Assembly: GCF_001423695.1 (NCBI RefSeq)
Contig: NZ_LMOZ01000002.1
Location: forward strand, 62,658-126,657
Length of the DNA: 64,000 nucleotides
Reading direction: 5' to 3'
Origin: Leifsonia sp. Leaf336
GTDB lineage: Bacteria > Actinomycetota > Actinomycetes > Actinomycetales > Microbacteriaceae
Part shown: in pieces, positions 25,538-40,670 of the stretch
Layout: each line of letters starts with the position of its first letter
Numbering within the stretch: position 1 is the stretch's first letter
Made by a program: the position numbers and the translations under genes
Notes under the pieces: model-generated
Told to the model about the DNA's origin: nothing
Database searches by the model: none
Seen by the model: only the letters and a program-made list of their open reading frames with translations

Positions 25538-26090
25538 CGGGCGCCATCCCGCAGGGGAGTAGGACGCCTCGAAAGGGTAGCAGAAACAAATACAAAATGT
25601 TTTGAACGAATCCGGGAGGCGTCACGATCGCCGCCAAGTGGGCCACGGACTTGCTCTCCGCGGCGGTCGGGGAGCCGCAGCTGGTGGCCAACCCACCGGG
25701 TCAGGAGGTCCCAAATGACTCACTACGGTTTTGAATGGGTAAGCAGGTGAGCCCGCGGGCGCGGCGTATCCGCGCCCGCGAGGAATGCGATCGCATCTTG
25801 ACCACGGAGCTGAGGCTCCGGGTGGCGCCCGGAATCGCAGTGCCGGGCGCGATCACACAGACGACGCCAGTCGCCTTTGCTGTAGGGCTGTTGTCATCCC
25901 CGTCCCGGTCCGCCGCGCGTGCCGCAGGGATTATGGAGACGCTTCTTGCGACCCAAAGACCCCCCGTTTTGGGACCTCATCTCTGTACGAATCTTCATGA
26001 ATCTTTTGTTTCTTGCAGCTTTGCAAATCGATAGTTCAAGCTCAGCGCTCGACCGTCGGGGGAGAGCCGGTCTCGCTCTCTGGGGTTTTT
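25538..26090. other. Left flank of the Rhs island, no convincing gene
   Basis: These 553 nt have several short frames, none with a recognisable product. They include an AT-rich patch (about 25580-25610), a hairpin at 25754-25780 and a second AT-rich stretch just before the Rhs gene (about 25970-26040). A tiny frame at 25714 (MTHYGFEWVSR) might be the start of a decayed gene. The abrupt composition changes fit a recombination scar. Confidence 0.5.
25754..25780. terminator. Strong GC hairpin in the island flank
   Basis: CGCGGGCGCGG - CGTAT - CCGCGCCCGCG, a perfect 11-bp stem. It could stop read-through from the VOC gene into the island. Confidence 0.55.
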
Positions 26091-29000
26091 GTGCGTCGTT
26101 TGCTGCGCTCGGTCGCGTCTGCTGGTGTTCCTCTCGTTGTTTCCGCGGCATTGGTGGCGGGCGTTCTGGTTCCTACACAGGCGGCAGCTGCTGATCAGCC
26201 GCCGGCGGTCTCGCCGACGAGTCTTCCTGCGTTGCTGTCGACGGCTGCCCCGGTCACGCCGGGCGCAGCGGACTCGGTGGGGACGCAGACGCCCGAGGCG
26301 ACTCCGACGAAGCTGAAGGCGGATACGTCAGATCAGGCCGCGCCCACGACCGGTGAGGTGCCCGCGGATCTGTCGGGTGCGACGGTGGAGTCGCGGGATG
26401 AGTTCACGACGACGTACACGAAGCCGGATGGCAGTCACGTGACCGAGGTATCGCCGACACCGATCAACATGGTGCAGGACGGCGAGTGGGCGGAGTCGAA
26501 GACAACGCTGCTGCCGGATGACGCCACCGGTGGGATGAGCGTGGATCAGAATGCGCTGCACCCGAAGCTAGCTAATGACGCGTCGGATCCCGGTGTGCTG
26601 TCGGTGGAGAAGGACGGCTACACGATCGATTACACCCTGCAGGGTGCGGCCGACTCGACCCTGGATCGGCCGTTGCCGTATGCGGTGCGCAACGGGGTGG
26701 ACGCGAACCAGGCGAGCTATCCGGACGTGTTCAACAACGTTGACCTGCAGTACGAGGTGCAGCCGAGCGCGGTGAAGGAGACGCTGAAGCTGGACAAGGC
26801 GCCCGACGCGTCCGTGACCTCGTTCGTCTGGAAGGTCCACGCACCGGGCCTGACGCTTGCGGTCAACGCTGACGGTGGCGTGGACTTCAAGGACTCGAAC
26901 GGGACGGCACGGTTCAGGATCCCGACTCCGTTGATGTGGGATTCCTCCGGTGTGGACGGGGAGTCTAGCGACGCGACGACAAATGTCCCGGTGACGGTGA
27001 CGAAGTCCGGCTCGGATTGGAAGATCACCCTGTCGCCGTCGCGGTCGTGGCTGACCGACTCGGACCGGGTCTACCCGGTGTTCGTGGACCCGACGACCTG
27101 GGGTGCGGCAGCGCAGGATATCCACTCGTACAAAGCGGATGGGACGCTTCGCACGGACACGATTCTGGTGGGCAACGCCCGCGACCCTGGCGATGACTGG
27201 TGGCGCTCGATCGTGCACTTCCCCTATGAGCAGCTATTCGGCAAGCAGGTGCTCGACGCGCAGATCTCGGTCGCGATGAACGGCATCGTCGGCACTTCGA
27301 CCACCTACCCAGGGGCAGTCGACTACGCGACCGCTTTCAGCTATTACGGCGTCGGCACGAACCTGGCATCGCTGACTGTGGGCAGCTCGGGCGCCTCGAG
27401 CGGTGCCGGGTTGGCACAACAGATCTCAACTTGGGTCAACGCTCGTTCGTCGGGGAACTACCTGATGCTCGCCGGTGGAGAGATCGCAGGCGCCTACACG
27501 TTGAAGAGCCTGGACGCCGCACTGTATGTGGCCTGGGCGGACTACCCGTCTGCTCCGGTCGCGGTTGCGCCGTCGCCAGCGAACGGGTCGCGGGCGAGTC
27601 TGACCCCGACGTTCAAGATCTCATCCAGTGACCCGACCGGGACGGGTCTGGGGTATTACTACCGGGTCGCCACCGGTGCGGACGCGGAGACCGGAGTGGT
27701 GTACAACTCGGGGTGGGTGACAAACAACCCGTTGACGATCCCGGACACGGTTCTGAAGCCGAATACCAAGTACTACTACCACCTGTTCGTCAAGGACGGG
27801 TACTGCTTCAACACACCCTCAAACTCCTGCTCCCAGATGGTCACCCCTGTGTTCTCCTTCACCACGAACACGCCAGGCGTGGTCGCGCAGGGGACAACTG
27901 CGCCCACTGATGGAACCGTGCTGGTCACGCCGACTCCGACACTGACCGGGACGGCGGGAACGGATGCCAACGGCGACCCGTTGAAGTACCAGATCCGGGT
28001 GACCACCGGCTCGGATGGCAAGAGCGGCATCGTCGCAGTATCTCCAGTGTTCACGACCGCCCCGTACTCGTGGCAGATCCCAGACGGGGTGCTGCAGGAC
28101 GGCGTCACCTACTCGTGGGTGATCGTGGTCGATGACGGATACGACAAGTCCCCGGGGTCATGGATCAACCACTTCCGGTACACGGCCCGGCTGGGGACCG
28201 GTGGGCCATCGCCGACCGACGCCGCCGGCGGGGTCAGTGTGAATCTGGCCAACGGCAACGCGAACCTGTCCTTCGCGTCGCCGACCGTGTCGACGCTGGG
28301 CGGCCCGATGGGGCTCTCGTTCAGCTACAACTCACAGGCACCCTCCACGAAGGGACTGACCGGCACCTATTACGACCTCTCCGGCGATGGGGCCAACCCG
28401 AACTTCTCGTTCACCCGGTCCGACTTGGCCAGCAAGGTCGCGCTGGTGCGCACGGACTCACTGTTGCGCTTCGACTGGGGCACCGAGCAGCCGGCACCGT
28501 CGGTGCCGAACAACAACATGATGGCTCAGTGGACCGGGTTCATCACACCGCCGGCGAACGGTTCGTACACGTTCGGATTCATCCGCGATAACGGCGCAAA
28601 GCTGATCCTGAACGGCACCACGGCGATCGACCAATTCACGAACACCTTTACTACCGCGGTCTCCTGGGGCAGCGCACCTGAGCTCACCACTGGGGCGGCG
28701 GGGACCTATAAGCCCACCCCGATCGCGGTGCAGTACTTCAACCAGAGCGGGCCGGCCACCTTTGAACTGTGGGTGAAAGGCACCTACACCGACACCGACG
28801 GGTCACAGAAGACCATCAACGACGTCGTGCCCGCCTCCTGGTTCAGTCGCAGCGTGGACACCCTGCCGCCCGGGTGGGGGGCCTCCACCGCTCTCAACGG
28901 CAACGACGCCATCTACGTCCGCGCTGAGGTGAAAGAGGGGTCGGTCGCGCTGATCGATACCACCGGCGCCACCCACACCTACACCAAGACCACGACCGGC

Positions 29001-32000
29001 GGTTACACGCCGCCGCCGGGGGAGCAGGGTGTGCTCGCCCAAGACAGCAAGGGCGTCTATACCCTCACCGACGAGGCCGGGACGGTGTACCAGTTCAACA
29101 CCGCGGGCAAGATCACCCAGATCACCCAGATCATGGATGCTAAGAAGCGGGCAACCCCGGTGTTGGGCTACCGTGCCGGCACCAACCAGCTAGACAGCAT
29201 CTCCGACCCGCTCTCCCTGGTGTCTGGTAGCTATACCCGACAGGTGAAGTTCGCCTACGCCGGCGACTCGGACAGCTCCGGACCGCTGTGCCCGAGCCGG
29301 GACGACTTCGTTCCGGCACCTACCGGGATGATCTGCGGCATCATCTACCCCGGCCACGTTCCCGGTTCCTTCGACGACATGACCCAACTCCTCTACACCC
29401 AGCTGAAGGACTCGACCGATCCGAACCAGCCGGCAAAGCTCGACGTGTCCGCCGGTGGTGTTCAGCTGGGCCGGATCATCGACCCCGGCGGCGAGACCAC
29501 CGACTTCGGCTACCAGAACGGGCTGCTCTCCACGATCCGGTCCGCGACCGTCAACGACTGGCTCGCGGCACACCCGGACAAGGACCCCGCCGGACCAGTC
29601 ACCACGGACATCGCGTATCTGAACAACCAGGTCGCCCAGATCACTCTGCCTGCCCCGGACGGGGTCACCAACAGCCAGCGACCCCAGAAGACCTATACCT
29701 ACAACACGAACAGTGACGGGTCCGGCTCCACCTTCGTCGACGCGGCCGGGCTCACTCCCTCCACCACCGCCCCGGCGAACGGGCACGCCGCCACTGCGAA
29801 CTACGACGCCGCCTGGCGGCGCACCACCGCCCTGTCCGCGACCGGGCTCGCCACCTCCACCACCTGGAACGTGAAGGACCAACCGACGAGCACGGTCGAT
29901 CCTGCTGGGCGCGAGTCCACCACGCTCTACAACCAGCAGGACCGCCCGACCGACACTTATGGGCCCGCACCCTCATCCTGTTTCGGTACCGATTTGCACC
30001 CGACAGCATCGTGCGCGATCACGCCCGCACACACCTCGACCAGCTACGACCAGGGCATGCCCGGCCTGGTCGCGGCCTACTACAACAACACCACCCTCAG
30101 CGGCATCCCCGCCGCGTACGGACCCGTCTTCACCGGTGCCGACGCCCAACAGATCTGGCCCGGCGGCGCACCCGTCACAGGTGTGAACGCCACCAACTGG
30201 TCGGCGCAGATCACCGGTACCGTCACCTTCCCCGCCGCCGGGAAATACAGCTTCAGCGTGTACACCGACAACACCGTGCAGGTCTACTTCAACGACGTCC
30301 TCGTCATCAACCAGACCAGTACCGGCACCGGCACCGCATCCATCACGACAACCGCCGGTCAACAAGTGCGGATCAGGCTGGCTTACACGCACGCCACTTC
30401 CAGCACCGAGATGACCCGGATGGCATGGATCCCCCCGGGCTCAGGCAGCGTCTACGTCCCCAGCGGAGATCTCTCACCCAACTACGGGCTGGCCACCAGC
30501 ACTCAAACCGACGACTCAGCACCGGCCGGCGTCGCCGGCGTCTCCAACGGCCAGGTCCCAGCGATGAAGACCAGCACCGCCTACGCCACCCCGTGGCTCG
30601 GCATCGCCACCTCCACCAGCGTGGACCCATCCGGCCTGAACTTGACCACCACGAGCACCTACGAGACCTACACGGACACCACCAAGTACTCGAGGTTGCT
30701 CACCCAGACCCTTCCCGCAGGCAACACCACCGTCTCCAACACCTACTACACCGAGACCGGCGGGTATGCGGCCCAGGTCAACGGCGGCACGGCGGCGTGT
30801 GGTGTCTTGGCATCGACACCGCAGTTCGGCCAGTTGATGACGTCAACCGGCGCTACCAACTCCTCCGGCGCCGCGATCGTCACCTCCTACGTGTACGACC
30901 TCCTCGGCCGGGTCGTGGCCACCAAACGCACCGGCGACACGGCGTGGTCGTGCACCACGTACGACCTGCGCGGCCGGGTGACGCAGCAGACCTACGCGGC
31001 GACCGGTTCGTCACCGTCGCGGACGGCGACATTCGGATTCACCGATGCAACCGGTGACCCGCTCACCAGCTGGGCGCGGGACGACGCCGTGCCCGGGTCG
31101 CCGACGAACGGTCGGATCACCACCGTGTCCGACCTCCTGGGCCGCACCGTGTCCTACACCGACGTATGGGGCACGGCCACCACCAACAGCTACAACATCC
31201 TCAACCAGTTCGTCACCCAATCGAGCACCCCCGCCGGGCAGGCAGCGCAGGGTGAGCAGTTCACCTACGACGACGACGGCAGGGTCACCGCGGTCAAGGA
31301 CCTCGCCGGCAACGTACTCGCACAACCCAGCTACACCGCTGGCGAACTCACCAGCGTCGCCTACCCGTCCGGGGCCGGGAACGCCGGAAACGGTGTGACC
31401 GGGACCTGGGCGCGGACTCTGACGGGGGCGGTGCAGTCGGTGGCGTGGGCGTTCCCGAACGGACAAGCTGGGATCTCGGACGCGGTCGTGCGCTCCCAGT
31501 CCGGGCGGGTGCTGACCGATACGCTCACCGACGGCACCACCGCATACGCGTCCTCCTACAGCTACGACGGTGCCGGACGGTTGGCGGCGGCGACAATCCC
31601 GCACCACCAGCTCAACTACGGGTTCGGAACTGCCGCCTGCGGCCGCACCACCGCGGGAGCGAACGGGAACCGGACCTCGTTCTCCGACAGCCTCGACGGC
31701 GGCGCCGCCTCCGTCACCAGCTACTGCTATGACGACGCCGACCGGCTCACCAGCACCACCCCGCCGGCGGGAAGCACCGGGTCACCGGTCGCCTCGACCG
31801 CGCTCAGCATCACCAGCGGCACCCTCGCTTACGACAACCGCGGCAACACCACCACGTTGGCCGATCAGACGATCGGCTACGACCAATCCGACCGACACGT
31901 GACCACGATCGTCGCCGGCGGCCCGACCATCGGATACGTCCGCGACGTGACCGGACGCATCGTCGCCCGAACCAGCACACCTGCCACGGGACCGGCGTCC

Positions 32001-32933
32001 GCGGTGCGGTACGGGTTCTCCGGCGATGGCGACAGTCCCGACTGGACCCTCACCACCAGCGGAGCGGTCACCGAGCGCACCCTGGCCCTTCCCGGGGGAG
32101 TGGTCGTCTCGCTCCAGGCTGCCGCGGCAGCGTGGTCATTCGCGAACCTCCACGGCGACGTTGTCGTCACTACCGACGGGTCAGGTACACGGCAAGGTCA
32201 GGTGGCGCAGTACGATCCGTTCGGGAACCCGATCGACCCCGCCACCGGGATCATCGGCACCACAACCGCCGACCAATCTGTCCCGACTAACACCTCACAA
32301 ACAGCCACCTACGGGTGGGAAGGGTCAAACCAAAAACTCTACGAACACGAAGGCTCCATCGGAACCATCGAAATGGGCGCACGTCAGTTCGTCGCTATCC
32401 TCGGCAGGTTCCTATCCACCGACCCCGTCGCCGGCGGAAACACGAACGCATACAACTATCCCAACGACCCTATAAACGGCTCGGACCTCACTGGCAAAGC
32501 CTTCTGGGACGACGTCGCGAACTTTGGAAAAGCGGCGTTGGATAACGACATTGTGCGTGGCCTTGCGATTGGTCTAGTACTCGCAGTGGCCTGTACAAAT
32601 CCGATCACTTGTATTGCCGCTGGAGTAATCGCTGGAGGGGCGCTCGGGGCAGCGAACTGGGCAGTAAACCATTCGAAGCAAGACTGGGTCCCGTATGTTG
32701 CGGGCGGAGCTGTCCAGGGCGCCAGCCTCGCCGTGGGCGGACTCGTTCTAGGCAAGGCGGCATCGCTACTCAAATTCCCACGTGTTAGCTATAGATTGCC
32801 GTCCATATCGAAACCCCTTCCCATCAGGATCGGCCCGCTGCACAGTGCAAAGTCTGTTATTTTTGCGTCACATGGCAACTTCATACTCCGGGCCGCGGCA
32901 GCGGTGTACAGAGCATGGCGAGGTCTCTTTTGA
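26091..32933 (+). CDS. Secreted Rhs/YD-repeat protein with two PA14 domains (polymorphic-toxin type)
   Basis: About 2,280 residues. Start taken at the GTG giving [20 protein letters not shown], a signal peptide ending in AAA-ADQ; a longer frame exists upstream. Then: a Thr/Pro-rich segment, a DNRLRE-like wall-associated part (to about 480), a fibronectin-like stretch (about 480-620), PA14 domain 1 (about 755-895), YD repeats, PA14 domain 2 (about 1325-1450), more YD repeats ([12 protein letters not shown]) and the Rhs core ([20 protein letters not shown], about 2095). The last 145 residues are the variable tip: a Gly/Ala-rich hydrophobic part ([20 protein letters not shown]) and a short basic end. 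No known nuclease or deaminase motif is seen. PA14 domains suggest carbohydrate binding at cell surfaces. Confidence 0.9.
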
Positions 32934-32938
32934 TTGTT

Positions 32939-33316
32939 ATGAACACCACTCTTAAGCGAATCATCGGAATCGTTCTCTTGTCGCCTGCGGCAATCATTGG
33001 CCTGCTGGTGGGGTACTTAGGTCCGAGTCGCGTCTTGGGCACAAATCCAATCGTTTGGACAATATCTGTCCTATATCTGGCGCTAGTAGGCGGCTACTTC
33101 ATCTGGGACTACCGCAGATCCCACCCTTCCCCACGCGAAACGGAAACGAACACCCGCATGACCAAGGCTGACTCGAAGGGGTCCGACTCGACGCATCGAG
33201 TTGCCAGACACAAGTCAGCTTCTCGCGCGCGCTGGCGATCGCCGAGCCTTCCAATCGAACTGCTCCTGTTGCTCGTCGCGATCGTCGCAGTCGCGGTGGC
33301 AGTACTAAACCGCTAG
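32939..33316 (+). CDS. Small membrane protein, candidate Rhs immunity protein
   Basis: A 125-residue protein starting 5 nt after the Rhs stop (an ATG at 32915 overlapping the Rhs end is also possible). Two hydrophobic helices near the N-terminus (IIGIVLLSPAAIIGLLVGYL and VWTISVLYLALVGGYFIW), a basic polar loop of about 50 residues, and a C-terminal helix (LLLLLVAIVAVAVAVL). The position right behind an Rhs tip is that of an immunity gene, and membrane location would suit a tip that acts on or through the membrane. No family recognised. Its base composition is clearly less GC-rich than its surroundings. Confidence 0.6.
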   Translation: MNTTLKRIIGIVLLSPAAIIGLLVGYLGPSRVLGTNPIVWTISVLYLALVGGYFIWDYRRSHPSPRETETNTRMTKADSKGSDSTHRVARHKSASRARWRSPSLPIELLLLLVAIVAVAVAVLNR

Positions 33317-33522
33317 AACCAGTCAGCACTGGATACTCAGCGTGCCCGAGCGCAGCGCCCGGCCCCGGCGGAGCGCAGGGGAGCGGGTGGCTTCTACTGG
33401 GGCCGTGTTATCCCACTAATTTAACCGAAGTACACACGGTTCACTTTACTGGAGCAACTAATCACTGACATAACGTTGATTATCAGCCAGAATGGTGTAC
33501 ACCGCAGTGTCGATAGTAGGGG
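33317..33522. other. Right flank of the Rhs island, AT-rich, no gene
   Basis: About 200 nt without a credible frame. It contains an imperfect GC hairpin (about 33345-33385) and an AT-rich part with an inverted pair TAATCA/TGATTA (33459-33482) whose meaning is unclear. Confidence 0.5.
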
Positions 33523-33612
33523 TTGCGCAGCGCCGATCGACGGACCTTTCTGGTGCACCTTCACGTCGCCGACCCGGGCGGGTACGAGGTCACGCTGCAT
33601 GACAGGGGATGA
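33523..33612 (+). pseudogene. 3' remnant of a VOC gene
   Basis: These 90 nt match the end of the intact VOC gene (about 25448-25537), including two exact runs of 17-18 nt. A 1-nt deletion in the TTCACGTTCGTGGAC equivalent shifts the frame, and everything upstream of the match is missing. In the last part the frame reads DPGGYEVTLHDRG-stop. Its TGA overlaps the start of the SAHH-like gene (ATGA), which suggests that this VOC gene once preceded that gene in an operon. Confidence 0.8.
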
Positions 33613-35324
33613 CGGACGGAACGAATCTGGACGAATCCGACCGCTATGCTGATCGCGTGTTCGAGGTGGCGAGCCGGAGCCCCCGGCAGTGGGCGGCGGC
33701 TGTCGTCCTCGGTTTCGCTGAGACGACGAACCTCTCGATCGCCGGCCGCCGATTCGACCTCCACGGCTCCGGGCCGAACGCGGCCGCGCTGGAGGCCCTG
33801 CTGACCGCGATCGGCGCACGCAGGGTCGCCGCCGGCGAGGCGCCCGACTACCTCTTCTTGAGCGGCGAGGGCGAGACGCCGCTCGGTGCGGCGGAGGCCG
33901 CCGCGCTCGCCGCGGATCGCGACCGCCCGCTGCTGCTCGTCGACGCCGCGCCGAGCGTCCCCGAAGGTGCCGAATCCTCCGGCCTCACCGACGTCCTCCC
34001 GTCGAAGCACCCGCTGCGCGCGGGCGTCCGGGCGACCTCCGTGCCGCGACTCATCGTCGTCCGGCTGGACGGCACACGCCACGGGCCGCACGACACCCCG
34101 GCCGCCGACCGGATCGCGTGGGCCCGGCGCTTCATGCCCACCTCGGGCCGGCTCGCCGAACGGCTGGCGGAGGACCGGACCGTCCGCGGCACCCGGATCG
34201 GCGTGAGCATGGTGCTCGAGCCGAAGACGGCCGTGCTCGCGTTGCGGCTGCAGGAGGCCGGCGCGGAGGTGTCCGTGTTCGCGCACCCCGACGAGACCGA
34301 CGACAAGGTGGCCGCGGCGCTCCGCGAAGCCGGAATCCGCGTCTTCGCCCGCTCCGCCGCAGGGCCGGCCGAGCATCGGGACCTCGCCCTCGCCTTCCTG
34401 GAGGAGCGACCCGCCGTGCTCGTCGACGACGGCTCCCACGTCATCCGGTTGGCCCACGAGTCGGCTCCGCAGCTCCTCGACGGCATGATCGGCGCGGCCG
34501 AGGAGACGACGAGCGGCCTCCGTCCACTGCGCGCGATGGCTGCGGAGGGCCGCCTCCGCATCCCCGTCGTCGCGGTCAATGACGCACGCAGCAAGACGCT
34601 CTTCGACAACCGGTACGGCACCGGCCAGTCCTGCCTCTTCACGATCCTCGGACTGACCGGTCTCGACCTCCATGGAGCGACGGTCGTCGTCGCGGGCTAC
34701 GGACCGGTCGGCGAAGGCGTCGCCCGGCACGCCCGCGCGTTCGGCGCGTCCGTGGTCGTCGCCGAGCTCGACCCGGTGCGCGCACTGGCCGCGACCTACG
34801 ACGGGTTCCGGGTGTCGCGTCTCATCGATGCGGTCGCCTCGGCCGACCTGGTCGTGTCGGCGACCGGCGTGCGCGACACCATCACCGTGGAGGTTCTCCA
34901 GGCCTGCGCCCCATCGGCCGTGGTCGCCGTCGCGGGCGGTGTGCCGCAGGAGGTCGCGGTGGAGGCCGCGCTCGCGGCGGGTGCGACGCGTGAGACCGTC
35001 GGGTGGAAGCGCGAGCAGCTCTCCTTCCCCGGCGGCACGAGCGTCGAACTCCTCGACGACGGCGGCTGCATCAACGTGACGGCGGGGGAGGGCAACCCCA
35101 TCGAGATCATGGACCTCTCCTTCGCCGTGCAGCTCTCGGCCATCCGGCACCTCGTCGAGTCGGCCGGAACCCTCGCTCTGGGAGTGCACCCGCTGCCCGC
35201 GGACGCGGATGACGCGGTGGCGGCGCAGGCGCTCGCGGCGGCCGGCCTCCGAGTCGATGAGGCGGCAACAGCCGCACCGGCCTCGGCCGCGACGTTCCCG
35301 CCGCGCTTCGGGGGTGCCGCATGA
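33609..35324 (+). CDS. Divergent S-adenosylhomocysteine-hydrolase-like protein
   Basis: A 571-residue protein. Residues about 1-170 have no family I recognise; residues about 180-540 follow the SAH-hydrolase/NAD-binding layout: VLVDDGSHV, EETTSGL, NDARSKTLFDNRYGTGQS (equivalents of the catalytic Lys/Asp and conserved Asn/Asp), and VAGYGPVGEGVARHARAFG for NAD. Several canonical residues are changed: the catalytic His of HMTVQTA is lost (SMVLEPKTA), and the His of the C-terminal ATGHPS motif is Asn (GEGNPI). NAD chemistry is probably retained with a different substrate. Overlaps the deaminase gene by 4 nt, so the pair is coupled. Confidence 0.8.
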   Translation: MTDGTNLDESDRYADRVFEVASRSPRQWAAAVVLGFAETTNLSIAGRRFDLHGSGPNAAALEALLTAIGARRVAAGEAPDYLFLSGEGETPLGAAEAAALAADRDRPLLLVDAAPSVPEGAESSGLTDVLPSKHPLRAGVRATSVPRLIVVRLDGTRHGPHDTPAADRIAWARRFMPTSGRLAERLAEDRTVRGTRIGVSMVLEPKTAVLALRLQEAGAEVSVFAHPDETDDKVAAALREAGIRVFARSAAGPAEHRDLALAFLEERPAVLVDDGSHVIRLAHESAPQLLDGMIGAAEETTSGLRPLRAMAAEGRLRIPVVAVNDARSKTLFDNRYGTGQSCLFTILGLTGLDLHGATVVVAGYGPVGEGVARHARAFGASVVVAELDPVRALAATYDGFRVSRLIDAVASADLVVSATGVRDTITVEVLQACAPSAVVAVAGGVPQEVAVEAALAAGATRETVGWKREQLSFPGGTSVELLDDGGCINVTAGEGNPIEIMDLSFAVQLSAIRHLVESAGTLALGVHPLPADADDAVAAQALAAAGLRVDEAATAAPASAATFPPRFGGAA

Positions 35325-36649
35325 GAGGCGACGTGACGGTCTTCTCGGCCGGGCTGGTGGTGCCGATGACGGCGCCGCCCATCCTGCGCGGGGCGGTCGC
35401 CGTGGCGGACGGCCGGATCCTGCACGTGGGCGAGCGGCGCTGGGTCATCGACTCGCTCGAGCAGCAGGACGTCCCGTACATCGAGCACTACTGGGACGGC
35501 GCGCTGCTCCCCGGGCTGGTGAACGCGCACTCGCACCTGCAGTACACCGGCATGGCCGAGGTCGGCGCAGGGCGGTACTCCGGTTTCGACGACTGGGCCG
35601 ACGCGTTCACCGTCGTCTACGAGAGGCCGCACGACTGGAGGGCCGACGCGCTGCTCGGCGCCGAGGAGCTCATCCGCCGCGGCGTCACGGCAGTCGCCGA
35701 CATCGTCACCGACCGGGAGGCCTCCGACGTCCTCCACGTCGCCGGGATGCGCGGCATCGCCTTCTGGGAGGTGATGAACTGGGAGACCGCCGACTGGAAC
35801 GAACGCGGTAGAGAGCAGGTCATCGCCGACCTCGAACGCATCCCGTCGACGCCGGGCGCCGGGCTGTCACCGCACGCGCCGTACTCCCTCGATACGGTCC
35901 CACTCCTCGACATGCCCGACATCGTGCGGCAGCGCGGCCAGCGGCTGCACATCCACCTCGGCGAGTCCGCCTTCGAGGAGGAGCGGCTCGACGCCGAGGG
36001 CGGCGACACCCACCGGGCGTGGCACTTCGTCGGCGTGCAGAGCTTCCGCGCCCTGCGCTCGCTCGGCTTCGGGACGGGCGCGACCGAGTTCGTCGACCGG
36101 CTCGGAGTGCTCGGCCCCGACTGCCACGTCGCGCACGGCGTCTACATGACGGCGAAGGACCGCGCGCTGTTGCGCGCCCGCGGCACGTCGGTGGCGCTCT
36201 GCCCGCGCTCCAACGAGGTCATCGGGCTCGCTCCGCCTCCGGTCGCGGCCTACCTGAAGGAGGGCAGCGCGATCGCGGTCGGCACGGACTCCCTGTCGTC
36301 GAGCCCGTCGCTCGACCTGATGAGCGACGTGACCGCCCTCTACCGGATCGCCCGCGAGCAGGGCTACACGCGTCGCGACCTCCACGCCCGCCTGCTGTCG
36401 GCGGCCACGCTCGGCGGCGCCCATGCGCTCGGCCTCGACATCGGACCGGACCGCATCGGCCACCTGGCCGTCGGCGCACTGGCCGACCTGGCGTTCTTCG
36501 ACGTGCCGGTCGGCCGGGTGAGCGACACCCTCGCCGAGCTGGTGGAGGCCGGCGCCGGACGCGTCGCCGCCACGGTCATCGGCGGCGACACCCGCTGGTC
36601 GGGTTCCTCGTGGACCGGCCCGCGGGTGACCGCGGGGGTGAGCTCATGA
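35321..36649 (+). CDS. Amidohydrolase of the SAH/MTA deaminase (TrzA/ATZ) type
   Basis: A 442-residue TIM-barrel metal hydrolase. NAHSHLQYTGM gives the HxH metal pair, HIHLGES the next His with the substrate Glu, DCHVAHGVYM the following His, and VGTDSLSSSPSLDL the catalytic Asp. These match the 5'-methylthioadenosine/SAH deaminase and chlorohydrolase branch, which deaminates adenine-type rings with one metal. Position next to an SAH-hydrolase-like gene supports a nucleoside substrate. The start overlaps that gene, and its stop overlaps the cupin (ATGA), so all three are translated in concert. Confidence 0.87.
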   Translation: MRGDVTVFSAGLVVPMTAPPILRGAVAVADGRILHVGERRWVIDSLEQQDVPYIEHYWDGALLPGLVNAHSHLQYTGMAEVGAGRYSGFDDWADAFTVVYERPHDWRADALLGAEELIRRGVTAVADIVTDREASDVLHVAGMRGIAFWEVMNWETADWNERGREQVIADLERIPSTPGAGLSPHAPYSLDTVPLLDMPDIVRQRGQRLHIHLGESAFEEERLDAEGGDTHRAWHFVGVQSFRALRSLGFGTGATEFVDRLGVLGPDCHVAHGVYMTAKDRALLRARGTSVALCPRSNEVIGLAPPPVAAYLKEGSAIAVGTDSLSSSPSLDLMSDVTALYRIAREQGYTRRDLHARLLSAATLGGAHALGLDIGPDRIGHLAVGALADLAFFDVPVGRVSDTLAELVEAGAGRVAATVIGGDTRWSGSSWTGPRVTAGVSS

Positions 36650-37131
36650 GCGAGCCGGTCGCGCGGCGCACGGTCGACGGGGAGGTCATCGAGTGGGTGG
36701 TGCCGCCGGCCCGCGCGCTCGCGCTGGGGCTCGAGCCGCATCCCGAGGGAGGCTGGTATCGCCGGACCTGGGCGGCGGGCGCCGTGGTCGCGACCGAGCG
36801 CGGCGACCGTCCGGCCGCGACCCTGATCTACTTCCTGCTGCCTCCCGGGGAGGCGTCCGCCTGGCACGTCGTCACCTCGGACGAGCTCTGGCTCTGGCAC
36901 GGTCCCGACGCGCTCGCCCTGCAGCTGGGAGGCGACGGGGACGCTCCCGCGGACGGTGAGATCGTGACGCTCGGGGCCGACGAGGCAGCGGGCCAGCGCG
37001 CTCAGGCGCTCGTGCCGGCGGGAGTCTGGCAGCGCACGCTGCCCTCCACCGGGGAGACGCTGGTCAGCTGCGTCGTCTCGCCGGGCTTCAGCTTCGACGA
37101 CTTCACGCTCCACGACGTACACAATCCGTAA
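36646..37131 (+). CDS. Cupin of the DUF985 / Cupin_5 family
   Basis: A 161-residue single cupin barrel. LGLEPHPEGGWYRRTW at the N-terminus and SAWHVVTSDELWLWHGPD are signature stretches of DUF985; LVPAGVWQRTLPS closes the barrel. DUF985 proteins bind small ligands and may have isomerase- or epimerase-like activity; the true role is unknown. The ATG overlaps the deaminase stop, and 77 nt later the ABC transporter genes begin. Confidence 0.87.
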   Translation: MSEPVARRTVDGEVIEWVVPPARALALGLEPHPEGGWYRRTWAAGAVVATERGDRPAATLIYFLLPPGEASAWHVVTSDELWLWHGPDALALQLGGDGDAPADGEIVTLGADEAAGQRAQALVPAGVWQRTLPSTGETLVSCVVSPGFSFDDFTLHDVHNP

Positions 37132-37208
37132 CCGTCGGGCGGCCGGCGGCCGTTTCCCTCTACCATCGAATGATTTTGGTCGCCCGAGACCGTCTGAAAG
37201 GTGCCTCC

Positions 37209-38057
37209 GTGTCCGCTGCCTCCTCCCGCTTCACCCGTGCCCTCGCCGCCGTCGGCGCCGCTGTCGTCGTCGCCGCCCTGGCGGCCTGCAGTGCGACCTC
37301 GTCCGGCTCCGCCACGTCGAGCAACGGCCTGCAGACGCAGACCGCCGGCAAGCTCACCATCGCGACCGGCCAGCCGGCGTACTCGCCGTGGGTGATCGAC
37401 GACAAGCCGCAGAGCGGACAGGGCTTCGAGGCGGCCGTCGCGTACGCCGTCGCCGAGAAGCTCGGCTTCGCCAAGAAGGACGTCGTCTGGACCCGCACCA
37501 CCTTCGACAGCGCGATCGCGCCCGGGCCCAAGACATTCGACCTGAACATCCAGCAGTTCACCATCTCGGCCGACCGCAAGAAGGCCGTCGACTTCTCGTC
37601 CCCGTACTACACGACGAGCCAGGCGCTGGTGACAACGAAGTCGTCGCCTGCGGCCTCGGTGACGACGGTGTCGGGTCTCAAGAAGATCAAGATCGGCGTC
37701 GCGACCGCGACCACCACCCTGACGCTCCTCAAGAAGGAGGTCGGCGGCAACGACATCTCGGTGTTCAACTCCAACGACGACGCGGTGCTCGCCCTCAAGA
37801 CCGGTCAGGTCGACGCCGTCGCGACCGACCTCCCGACCGCCTTCTACCTCGCCGACTCGCAGGTCGACAACGGCGTCGTGAGCGGACAGTTCGCCGACAC
37901 CGCCGGCGGCGACCAGTTCGGCATCGTGCTCCCCAAGGACTCGCCCAACACCAAGAAGGTCAGCGAAGCCGTCGACTCCCTCCGCTCCAGCGGCGAGCTC
38001 GACGCGATCACCAAGAAGTGGCTGTCGGCGACGGTGAACGTCCCGGTCTTCAAGTGA
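37209..38057 (+). CDS. Amino-acid-type ABC transporter binding lipoprotein
   Basis: A 282-residue family-3 solute-binding protein. The N-terminus ends in the lipobox LAAC (Cys27), followed by a Ser-rich linker. KLTIATGQPAYSPWVIDDKP and FDLNIQQFTISADRKKAVDF are the standard ligand-cleft segments of polar amino acid binders. GTG start with GAAAGG upstream; an ATG 13 codons earlier lacks such a site. The usual ligand Arg/Asp pattern is atypical (IQQFTIS replaces a common G-x-T-x-R), so the ligand may not be a plain amino acid. Confidence 0.88.
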   Translation: MSAASSRFTRALAAVGAAVVVAALAACSATSSGSATSSNGLQTQTAGKLTIATGQPAYSPWVIDDKPQSGQGFEAAVAYAVAEKLGFAKKDVVWTRTTFDSAIAPGPKTFDLNIQQFTISADRKKAVDFSSPYYTTSQALVTTKSSPAASVTTVSGLKKIKIGVATATTTLTLLKKEVGGNDISVFNSNDDAVLALKTGQVDAVATDLPTAFYLADSQVDNGVVSGQFADTAGGDQFGIVLPKDSPNTKKVSEAVDSLRSSGELDAITKKWLSATVNVPVFK

Positions 38058-38094
38058 TCGCACGTCTTCCCGCCGTGATCGCCGGGAGCTGCGC

Positions 38095-38976
38095 GTGAGC
38101 CCGCGGGCGGCCACGACGCAGACCCGGCTCGACGGCACGCCGGTCAGCGGGATCGAGCTCGACCGCCGCGCCTTCCGCGCCAAGCAGTCGGGCCGGTCGG
38201 TGCTGATCAGTCTCGCGAGCACGATCGTGCTGGCGGCGCTGGTCTGGCTGACCGTCGTCAACACGCCCGGCTGGGCGCTCGTGCAGCAGTCGTTCTTCAA
38301 CGTGAAGATCGGCTGGGAGTACCTCGGCTCGATCCTGGTCGGCCTGTGGCTGAACATCCAGATCCTGTTCTACTCCGCGATCGGCGTCGCGATCTTCGCG
38401 ACGCTGATCGCGATCGTGCGCACCCTCCGCGGGCCGGTCTTCTTCCCGCTGCGCGTCATCGCGACCGTCTACACCGACCTGTTCCGCGGGATGCCGCTGA
38501 TCATCGTGCTCTACCTGGTCGGCTTCGGCATCCCGGCGCTCGGGGTGTTCCCCCGCATGCCGCCTGAGTTCTGGGGCACGACCGCGCTCATCCTCACCTA
38601 CTCCGCGTACGTGGCCGAGGTGCTGCGGGCGGGCATGGAGGCCGTGCACCCCTCCCAGCGGCTCGCGGCGCGCTCGCTCGGCCTCTCGCACGCGCAGATG
38701 CTCCGGCTGGTGGTCATGCCGCAGGGCGTCCGCAAGGTGACGCCGGCGCTCGTGAACGACTTCGTCTCGATGCAGAAGGACGTCGGCCTCGTGTCGGTGC
38801 TCGGCGCCGTCGACGCCGTCCGCGCGGCTCAGATCGCGTCGGCGGACGCTTACAACTTCACCCCCTACATCGTGGCCGGGCTGCTGTTCGTCGCGATCAG
38901 CTGGCCGCTCATCCGCCTCACCGACTGGCTGTCCGCCCGGGCGCAGAAGCGCGAACAGATCGGAGGCACGGTGTGA
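38095..38976 (+). CDS. Amino-acid-type ABC transporter permease
   Basis: A 293-residue His/Glu-type permease. Hydrophobic segments include VLISLASTIVLAALVWLTVV and the core LWLNIQILFYSAIGVAIFA, and the ATPase-contact loop reads LRAGMEAVHPSQRLAARSLG. It is the only permease gene here, so the channel is presumably a homodimer. GTG start; the stop overlaps the ATPase start by 4 nt. Confidence 0.9.
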   Translation: MSPRAATTQTRLDGTPVSGIELDRRAFRAKQSGRSVLISLASTIVLAALVWLTVVNTPGWALVQQSFFNVKIGWEYLGSILVGLWLNIQILFYSAIGVAIFATLIAIVRTLRGPVFFPLRVIATVYTDLFRGMPLIIVLYLVGFGIPALGVFPRMPPEFWGTTALILTYSAYVAEVLRAGMEAVHPSQRLAARSLGLSHAQMLRLVVMPQGVRKVTPALVNDFVSMQKDVGLVSVLGAVDAVRAAQIASADAYNFTPYIVAGLLFVAISWPLIRLTDWLSARAQKREQIGGTV

Positions 38977-39755
38977 CCGCGTCGACACCAGAGCCGCCGG
39001 CCGCCGAGGCCGTCCTCCCCGAGGCCGTTCTCCGCGTCGAGGGTCTCTACAAGAGCTTCGGCGACACCCCGGTGCTGCGGGGGATCGACCTGGAGGTCGA
39101 CCAGCACCAGGTCGTCGTCGCGATCGGCGCCAGCGGCTCCGGCAAGTCGACGCTGCTCAAGACGATCAACCTCCTCGAGCAGATCGACGACGGCCGCATC
39201 TTCCTCAAGGGCGAGGACATCAGCGACCCGCGCATCGACGTGGACCGCACGCGCGCCCGCATCGGTGTGGTGTTCCAGCAGTTCAACCTGTTCCCGCACC
39301 TGAGCGTTCTCGACAACGTGACGCTCGCCAGCCGCAAGGTGCACGGCATCCCGCGCGACGAGGCGGAGGCGACGGCGGTGCAGTGGCTGGAGCGCATCGG
39401 CCTGGGCGCCAAGGTCAAGGACTTCCCCGACCGGCTATCGGGAGGCCAGCAGCAGCGCGTCGCCATCATCCGGGCGATCGTGACCAACCCGGAGCTGCTG
39501 CTGCTCGACGAGATCACCAGCGCCCTCGACCCGCTGCTCGTGGGCGAGGTGCTCGACCTGGTGACGGAGCTGAAGGCCGCGGGCTCCACCATCCTGATGA
39601 CGACCCACGAGATGCAGTTCGCCCGCACGGTCGCCGACCACATCATCTTCCTGAACAACGGGGTGCTCCTGGAGCAGGGGCCGCCGGAGCAGGTCTTCGG
39701 CAACCCGCGCGAGGAGGCCACCCGGCAGTACCTGGCGCGAGTGCACAGCGGCTGA
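38973..39755 (+). CDS. Amino-acid-type ABC transporter ATPase
   Basis: A 260-residue ABC ATPase: Walker A GASGSGKSTLLK, Q-loop VFQQFNLFPHLSV, signature LSGGQQQRVAI, Walker B LLLLDEITSALDP and switch His in MTTHEMQFA. It closely follows the GlnQ/HisP pattern. It completes a three-gene importer directly behind the SAHH-like, deaminase and cupin genes and probably imports the compound those enzymes process. Confidence 0.93.
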   Translation: MTASTPEPPAAEAVLPEAVLRVEGLYKSFGDTPVLRGIDLEVDQHQVVVAIGASGSGKSTLLKTINLLEQIDDGRIFLKGEDISDPRIDVDRTRARIGVVFQQFNLFPHLSVLDNVTLASRKVHGIPRDEAEATAVQWLERIGLGAKVKDFPDRLSGGQQQRVAIIRAIVTNPELLLLDEITSALDPLLVGEVLDLVTELKAAGSTILMTTHEMQFARTVADHIIFLNNGVLLEQGPPEQVFGNPREEATRQYLARVHSG

Positions 39756-39881
39756 GGGGGTCCGAGGCCGGCGCGCCTGCGTTCGACGCCTTCCTGCCTA
39801 GCGCGCGACGGGTGACGATCTGGCCCGGCAGCACGCAGAGTCCTACGATGAGGGCGTCCGCGCTGCCGGGGGAGGACGCCG

Positions 39882-40670
39882 CTGAACTGGTTCTACGACA
39901 CGCCCGAATACATCACGCTGCCCGTCTTCGTGGTGCTGTTCGTGGCGGCGTCGTGCGGCATCGTCCTCCTGCTCCGGCCGTTCGTCCGCCGCAACGCGGT
40001 GGAAGGCGCGCAGTGGGACCGCGTGCTCGGCTACATCGTCGGCACCTTCGGGGTGTTCTTCGGCATCCTCCTCGGCCTCGTGGCGGTCTCGGTCTACAAC
40101 GACTACACCGACGCCCACTCCGCGGCGCTCGAGGAGACGTCGCGGCTGAGCAGCCTCTATCGCTCGGCGGCCGGCCTGCCCGAACCCTTGAGCACTGAAC
40201 TCCAGGACGAGCTGAAGTCCTACACGCGCACGGTGATCGACGGCGACTGGCCGCAACAGGAGCAGGACCAGCTCCCCACCGCAAGCCTGCCGGCCGTCGA
40301 TCGCATTCAGCGCACCATCGACTCGTTCGACCCGCACACCCTGAAGGAGCAGGCGCAGTACGCGCAGATCCTCAGCACCTTCGACTCCTTCGTGGAGGCC
40401 CGGCGCGCACGCACCGACGCCACCACCGTCGAACTGCCGGGCCTGTTCTGGCTGGTGATCTGGGCCGGCGCGATCATCAACGCGGTGCTGATCGGCTTCA
40501 TCGAGGTGAAGAACGTGCGGCAGCACCTGCTGATGGCGGGCCTCCTCGCCCTGTTCATCTCCCTGGTCATGTTCGTGACCGCCGACATGGACCACCCGTA
40601 CGCCGGCTCGATCTCGGTCGACCCTGGCGACTTCGTGCGGCTGCTGCAGCAGTGGGAGCGGAGCGGCTGA
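39882..40670 (+). CDS. DUF4239-like membrane protein, probable CTG start
   Basis: About 262 residues. Two N-terminal helices (VVLFVAASCGIVLLL and YIVGTFGVFFGILLGLVAVS), a roughly 110-residue soluble part with SLYRSAAGLPEPLSTELQ, and two C-terminal helices (FWLVIWAGAIINAVLIGFI, LLMAGLLALFISLVMFVTAD). This is the layout of DUF4239 proteins. A GTG at 39930 is available, but it cuts into helix 1. The codon CTG at 39882, 6 nt after GGGGGAGG, yields NWFYDTPEY, the usual family start. Function unknown. Confidence 0.75.
   Translation: MNWFYDTPEYITLPVFVVLFVAASCGIVLLLRPFVRRNAVEGAQWDRVLGYIVGTFGVFFGILLGLVAVSVYNDYTDAHSAALEETSRLSSLYRSAAGLPEPLSTELQDELKSYTRTVIDGDWPQQEQDQLPTASLPAVDRIQRTIDSFDPHTLKEQAQYAQILSTFDSFVEARRARTDATTVELPGLFWLVIWAGAIINAVLIGFIEVKNVRQHLLMAGLLALFISLVMFVTADMDHPYAGSISVDPGDFVRLLQQWERSG

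Follow-up and report, generated by a model that had tools for sequence, protein, structure and literature searches.

An SAHH-like protein without the classical histidines, linked to a deaminase, a cupin and an importer in Leifsonia sp. Leaf336 and other bacteria

Described systems and the Leifsonia operon

Methyl metabolism relies on S-adenosylhomocysteine hydrolase (SAHH), an enzyme that is highly conserved. Here we analysed a stretch of 64,000 nucleotides from Leifsonia sp. Leaf336 (contig NZ_LMOZ01000002.1, positions 62,658 to 126,657; hereafter the window), which carries at 33609-39755 six co-directional open reading frames (ORFs) on the + strand, encoding an SAHH-like protein, a deaminase, a cupin and an ATP-binding cassette (ABC) importer. 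The positions agree with a preliminary description of this DNA, and its picture of coupled SAHH-like, deaminase and cupin genes followed by a complete importer was borne out for all six ORFs, their overlaps and their Pfam families.

The closest described system is found in archaea and Thermotoga, where an S-adenosylhomocysteine (SAH) deaminase (DadD/MTAD) works together with an S-inosylhomocysteine (SIH) hydrolase. According to the available text of PMC10978960, this deaminase and SIH hydrolase logic is known from archaea and Thermotoga and SIH is formed in Streptomyces flocculus, so an SIH route had already been described for bacteria, a point that the preliminary description, which knew of no bacterial system of this composition, did not mention. 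The same text reports that SAHHs with the motif HxExK prefer SIH and enzymes with HxTxE(Q) prefer SAH, and that the Lys of HxExK is able to form a bond with the C6 oxygen of hypoxanthine, the His being important for catalysis (PMC10978960). Our locus resembles this pathway in combining a deaminase with an SAHH-family protein that bears the ExK hypoxanthine signature. However, the window hydrolase has VxExK, a Gly at the gate His and GNP for GHP, and the locus further differs by the linked importer and cupin, by an extra N-terminal domain and by a canonical SAHH in the same host.

With canonical bacterial SAHH (AhcY) the window protein shares the fold, the nicotinamide adenine dinucleotide (NAD) site and the ribose-binding Glu, Asp and Lys, but it lacks the His residues of AhcY, which the host encodes as a separate gene (G000:C2:568976-570418, 480 bits, His residues present). 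The animal AHCYL1 and AHCYL2 are SAHH-like paralogs with a changed active site that form heteromers. They belong to another lineage, and in the window system the altered paralog keeps the Lys, Asp and NAD residues whereas the other paralog degenerates. The cupin is a member of PF06172, as are the Cff1p/YML079w cupins, but it sits in a nucleoside/amino-acid operon. The parts are members of known families; the literature searched gave no description of the altered hydrolase clade, of its reduced partner or of a link with an importer and a Cff1-type cupin. A sizeable bacterial clade thus retains the cofactor and substrate residues, has replaced the catalytic, gate and GHP His and is coupled to genes for a deaminase, an importer and a Cff1 cupin. 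This points to a use of environmental SAH-like compounds that has not been described before, and the SAHH-like protein is a candidate enzyme type for the fate of SIH in some actinobacteria.

The SAHH-like protein

The first gene (33609-35324) encodes a protein of 571 amino acids (aa), whose SAHH core comprises residues ~166-552. It matches the SAHH superfamily profiles PF00670 (102.2 bits) and PF05221 (82.7 bits) and scores above the cut-off of NF004005 (379.2 bits against 275) and under that of TIGR00936 (326.7 bits against 497.6). Twelve residues, E204, K206, D273, D274, E298, E299, K329, D333, G443, G444, N496 and P497, are present in 30/30 aligned rows, and the GxGxxG-type NAD loop is also retained. 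E204 and K206 are the Glu and Lys of the HxExK signature of SIH hydrolases. The three classical His are absent. With Thermotoga maritima SAHH as the reference, the His position of HxExK is occupied by V, F or I, the gate His of NAGHF by Gly (AGG) and the His of GHP by Asn (GNP), in each case in 30/30 rows. Another histidine, H277, occurs in 26/30 rows. Since ExK is kept and the three His are replaced, the protein seems to recognise an inosine-type base but to depart from the classical chemistry, and the loss of the His is our main reason for withholding the name SIH hydrolase. Judged from its residues, a protein with the NAD and ribose residues but devoid of all three His does not qualify as a standard SIH hydrolase.

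The AlphaFold model (predicted local distance difference test score, pLDDT, 89.8) finds its best structural matches in T. maritima and archaeal SAHHs. In a 34-row tree, this clade, which we call A, and likewise the groups B and C discussed below, are each set apart from the remaining rows by a branch supported at 100/100.

To survey the clade we scanned one genome per species over 84,980 species with sequence patterns, which resulted in 297 relatives; the best-scoring 80 are referred to as named loci. ExKTA without the preceding His was seen in 79 of these 80, the remaining locus (L138) starting at a contig edge, and one locus (L139) has Thr at the His position. GNP was present in 80/80, a count biased by one of the two scan patterns, which contained EGNP; L066 shows GGNP versus the EGNP of the 30 rows.

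Two other SAHH-like forms were encountered. Proteins of the third clade, C (L159-L168, from genomes of the same family; 9 of the 10 aligned), keep the His in HxEPK but have Glu for the SAHH active-site Asp (e.g. GENKHAVGQS) and GNS for GHP. Their genes adjoin a conserved ORF in 10/10 loci; the single one of these ORFs that was examined encodes an IclR-type regulator. In the SAHH-like protein at 7989-9254 of L155 (Rubrobacter radiotolerans plasmid 2), Pro replaces the catalytic His and the gate reads AGG, but GHP is retained; this protein is possibly an intermediate form.

Conservation across genomes

Gene presence at the loci was called by tblastn (E<=1e-15). Among the best 80 of the 297 loci, the deaminase was found in 79, the cupin in 64 and the polar amino-acid importer in 57, so the co-occurrence on which the preliminary description depended withstood the check in other genomes. 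An orthologous S component of an energy-coupling factor (ECF) importer was present in 13 loci, both importer types in none and neither in 10, four of which span just 3.2 to 11.1 kb. Wherever a deaminase was present, it lay on the strand of the SAHH-like gene. This conserved synteny excludes a chance arrangement. The 80 loci are not 80 independent cases, as 37 of them come from Curtobacterium. The others include Leifsonia, Frondihabitans, Galbitalea, Rathayibacter, Microbacterium, Humibacter, Schaalia, Actinomyces, Demequina, Sanguibacter, Rarobacter, Mycolicibacterium/Mycobacterium, Nocardia, Rhizohabitans, a Granulosicoccus metagenome-assembled genome and more. The best-matching named relatives of the window operon are from Leifsonia (L074, L075).

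A search within the same family matched 139/299 genomes at E<=1e-40, many of the matches being canonical or C-clade SAHHs. For the A type we required at least 42% identity and E<=3e-68, which gave 48/299. From the 47 A-type genomes other than the host we took 40 loci as a second sample, with 38 deaminases, 33 cupins, 32 polar importers and 3 ECF components; the deaminase exceptions are L070, which has none, and L073, which ends at a contig end. The two samples share organisms and their counts are not additive. The hydrolase and the deaminase form a single ORF in Rarobacter (L129, 1087 codons), in Microbacterium (L140, the same as L056) and in L066 (1029 aa).

Deaminase, importer and cupin

All six ORFs were assigned to families with Pfam and NCBIfam profiles, the cupin with Pfam only. 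The ORFs overlap at their starts and stops in ATGA at 35321 and 36646 and in GTGA at 38973, which suggests translational coupling. A weak sigma-70-like promoter match (9/12, + strand) lies upstream of the operon at 33465-33493 and is the only one in a scan of 33300-40000 (1 found; mean of shuffles 0.2).

The deaminase (35321-36649, PF01979) has the AHS/amidohydrolase fold with conserved metal and catalytic residues (H70, H72, H210, H212, E215, H269, H272 and D323). Its model is structurally nearest to adenosine/5'-methylthioadenosine (MTA) deaminases, and among the nearest structures are enzymes with bound MTA or methylthio-coformycin as well as an aminofutalosine deaminase. Sequence matches include 8-oxoguanine deaminase and AtzA; from the modelled structure, guanine or an s-triazine appears a less likely substrate. 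The preliminary description had seen in the deaminase and hydrolase the same enzyme pair as in archaea. The ExK signature, the similarity to adenosine/MTA deaminases and the gene fusions sustain the comparison, but the pair is not the same, given that the HxExK, gate and GHP His are lost in 30/30 aligned relatives.

The importer consists of a family-3 solute-binding lipoprotein with a GTG start (37209-38057, PF00497), a permease (38095-38976, PF00528) and an ATPase (38973-39755, PF00005). The binding protein is of the SBP_bac_3 type, the permease of the HEQRo type (TIGR01726, 57.2 bits against 42.2) and the ATPase matches them, as expected for a polar amino-acid-type importer. R123 of the lipoprotein occurs in 92/92 aligned rows and D207 in 99%, counts that hold duplicates because the rows were drawn from both locus sets. 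We take these residues to have their family roles, holding the alpha-carboxylate and the alpha-amino group. Their conservation supports the importer type proposed in the preliminary description. The lipoprotein did not reach the equivalog cut-offs of cystine- or glutamine-specific importers, PRK11260 (99.1 bits against 312) and GlnH (92.3 against 303). At other loci the ECF S component matches the riboflavin-type family PF07155 (NF010182 85.7 bits, cut-off 99), and L144 has a sugar-type binding protein and permease instead, with homologues of this binding protein in L134, L143 and L149.

The cupin (36646-37131), of the DUF985/Cupin_5 (Cff1/YML079w) family, matches PF06172 with 139.6 bits against 25 and is the only match to this family in the host. 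The Glu of its HPEGG motif is present in 98/98 operon cupins, a count that includes duplicates for the same reason as above, and probably corresponds to E44 of Cff1. The filters applied to the 92-row and 98-row alignments removed no row. Yeast Cff1p (DUF985) is required for 4-hydroxy-5-methylfuran-3(2H)-one (MHF), a mimic of autoinducer-2 (AI-2), according to the available text of PMC8092285.

Proposed pathway and alternatives

We tentatively favour the reading that the operon serves to scavenge an exogenous adenosyl thioether with an alpha-amino acid, most likely SAH or a close analogue, and consider its prospects of being right as nearly even. In this respect the salvage logic of the preliminary description was largely right. 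The lipoprotein and ABC importer would grip the alpha-amino-acid end and take the compound in. The deaminase, whose fold is clear and whose substrate we infer, would convert adenine to hypoxanthine, giving S-inosyl-homocysteine or an analogue. The ExK of the SAHH-like protein, whose Glu and Lys are present in every aligned row, would then bind hypoxanthine; the bound NAD+ would oxidise the 3'-OH of the ribose and the 5'-thiol would be expelled by beta-elimination, yielding homocysteine as a source of sulfur or methionine. As the classical His are gone, the sugar product is probably handled otherwise than in classical SAHH, and the Cff1-type cupin might, speculatively, act on the keto/dehydro-pentose part. 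The N-terminal domain would be a former SAHH subunit, now reduced and serving as an assembly scaffold.

Several observations weigh against this scavenging scheme. The host has a canonical SAHH, so endogenous SAH needs no second route, and with the classical catalytic His lost, thiol release by the SAHH-like protein is itself presumptive. The deaminase is under every NCBIfam cut-off among the 25 families listed (e.g. PRK15493, 54.2 bits against 779; PRK07228, 100.3 against 522). The importer varies by lineage (polar amino acid, ECF riboflavin-type or sugar), which makes one shared ligand less likely. L137, with SAHH-A, SAHH-B and an importer, has no deaminase in its contig-limited 14.4 kb, in addition to L070. 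Sulfur-linked neighbours (see below) were seen in few species, which are partly close relatives.

A doubtful but possible alternative is that the SAHH-like protein is a divergent SIH hydrolase in which other residues (e.g. H277, R280) stand in for the lost His, and which produces inosine and homocysteine as in archaea. The retained ExK, Asp, Lys and NAD residues and the Thermotoga and archaeal enzymes as nearest structures are consistent with this, and the nucleoside hydrolase beside some operons would use the inosine. Moreover, the Streptomyces SAHHs tested in the available text of PMC10978960 do not cleave SIH, though S. flocculus yielded SIH, which leaves room for another enzyme. However, the three His are replaced in every aligned row and H277 is not invariant, and in L065, L137 and L154 the adjoining paralog has the HxExK His and would be redundant if both performed the same reaction.

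Somewhat unlikely, in our judgement, is that the substrate is another 5'-modified adenosine (MTA, 5'-deoxyadenosine, an aminofutalosine-like compound or a nucleoside antibiotic) and the operon serves purine or sulfur salvage or detoxification. The MTA-, methylthio-coformycin- and aminofutalosine-related structures nearest to the deaminase argue for this reading, and the ECF and sugar-type importers of some lineages suit a nucleoside better than an amino acid. Against it, the polar amino-acid binding protein of the main lineage keeps the Arg and Asp presumably expected for amino acids, and 5'-deoxyadenosine, as we understand the mechanism, offers SAHH chemistry no leaving group.

In an improbable variant of the scavenging scheme, reasoned out from the chemistry rather than from any computed result, the operon would turn SAH into an AI-2-type furanone without the help of LuxS. 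After oxidising the 3'-OH, the SAHH devoid of the His would release homocysteine by elimination but would not add water. This would leave a 3'-keto-4',5'-didehydro nucleoside, from which loss of hypoxanthine and reduction would give compounds of the 4,5-dihydroxy-2,3-pentanedione (DPD)/MHF family, on which the Cff1-type cupin would act. If so, the operon would have two roles, gaining sulfur from SAH in the environment and producing or using up a furanone signal, in organisms that possess neither LuxS nor MTA/SAH nucleosidase; the host genome, the only one searched for both, gave no match to LuxS or to the nucleosidase model TIGR01704.

It is very unlikely that the SAHH-like protein has no catalytic role and instead regulates or binds the deaminase or the canonical SAHH, as AHCYL1 presumably does in animals. 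The loss of the catalytic histidines, the fusion to the deaminase in some species and the apparently reduced partner paralog would fit, but Lys329, Asp333, Glu298/299 and Asp273/274 in 30/30 rows together with the kept NAD loop are untypical of a pseudoenzyme. Finally, we regard as most improbable a deaminase acting on an unrelated heterocycle (guanine, isocytosine, triazine) with the SAHH-like protein in another process: the substrates of AHS deaminases are broad and the sequence matches include 8-oxoguanine deaminase and AtzA, but adenosine/MTA deaminases rank first by structure and the gene is tightly coupled, sometimes fused, to that of an SAHH-fold enzyme.

The N-terminal domain and the partner paralog

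The N-terminal ~165 aa of the window protein (33609-34103) may go back to an ancestral tandem SAHH paralog, B, of which it would represent the NAD-binding domain in reduced form. L137, L065 and plasmid L154 each have a second SAHH-like gene, B, which lies upstream of A, overlaps it and retains HLEAK as well as the gate His and GHP. The B of L139 has lost these motifs as well as the Lys and Asp, yet still matches PF00670 (E=1.2e-17). An ORF of just 184-265 aa overlaps A at loci from Mycolicibacterium/Mycobacterium, Nocardia, Rathayibacter, Cryobacterium and Microbacterium. Nine such small ORFs map to the SAHH NAD domain by profile comparison (hhalign probability 96.5, E=7e-10), and PF00670 comes up in 9/9 at E<=1, though under its gathering score wherever individual scores were listed; matches to other NAD-binding families occur in up to 4/9.

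For the window domain itself the signal is fainter. It had no Pfam match when searched alone and its direct profile similarity is weak; the order of strands and helices predicted in the AlphaFold model resembles that of the SAHH NAD domain. With moderate confidence we therefore take it for a B subunit in reduced form, retained for assembly. Apparently a tandem B paralog was reduced stepwise to a small partner ORF and then to a fused domain of ~165 aa; if this is true, the loci would show in an instructive natural series how a subunit decays.

Neighbouring genes

In four Microbacterium loci the operon has a nucleoside hydrolase gene next to it on the opposite strand; the host has two nucleoside-hydrolase matches, both away from the operon. 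On plasmid L154, annotated as Roseateles sp. XES5 (UNVERIFIED_ORG), the gene order is LacI (opposite strand), B, A, sugar-type binding protein and permeases, deaminase, ATPase and a nucleoside hydrolase (RihC 237 bits, cut-off 382). The same plasmid encodes at 1-1146 a pyridoxal phosphate enzyme of Cys/Met metabolism (PF01053), ~6.5 kb upstream of SAHH-B/A.

Among the sulfur-linked neighbours, L128 has an alkanesulfonate-monooxygenase-like gene (438.6 and 433.8 bits, below the cut-offs of 510 and 518.2) and L144 an NtaA/DmoA-family monooxygenase over its cut-off (464.1 bits). Homologues of the latter occur in L134 and L149, and also in L081, L141 and L147, where they lie on the opposite strand. 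A SrpI-like type 2A encapsulin and a class-V aminotransferase lie upstream of the operon in three Mycolicibacterium/Mycobacterium loci (L121 3892-6673, L128 4752-7533 and L131 3807-6651); this aminotransferase is presumably a cysteine desulfurase.

In the window, the operon is preceded by a gene for a 2306-aa protein (26013-32933) with matches to PA14, RHS-repeat and GLEYA, and by a 133-aa ORF (32915-33316) without any match in Pfam or NCBIfam. Directly downstream of the operon, at 39930-40670, a bestrophin-like protein (PF14023) is encoded.

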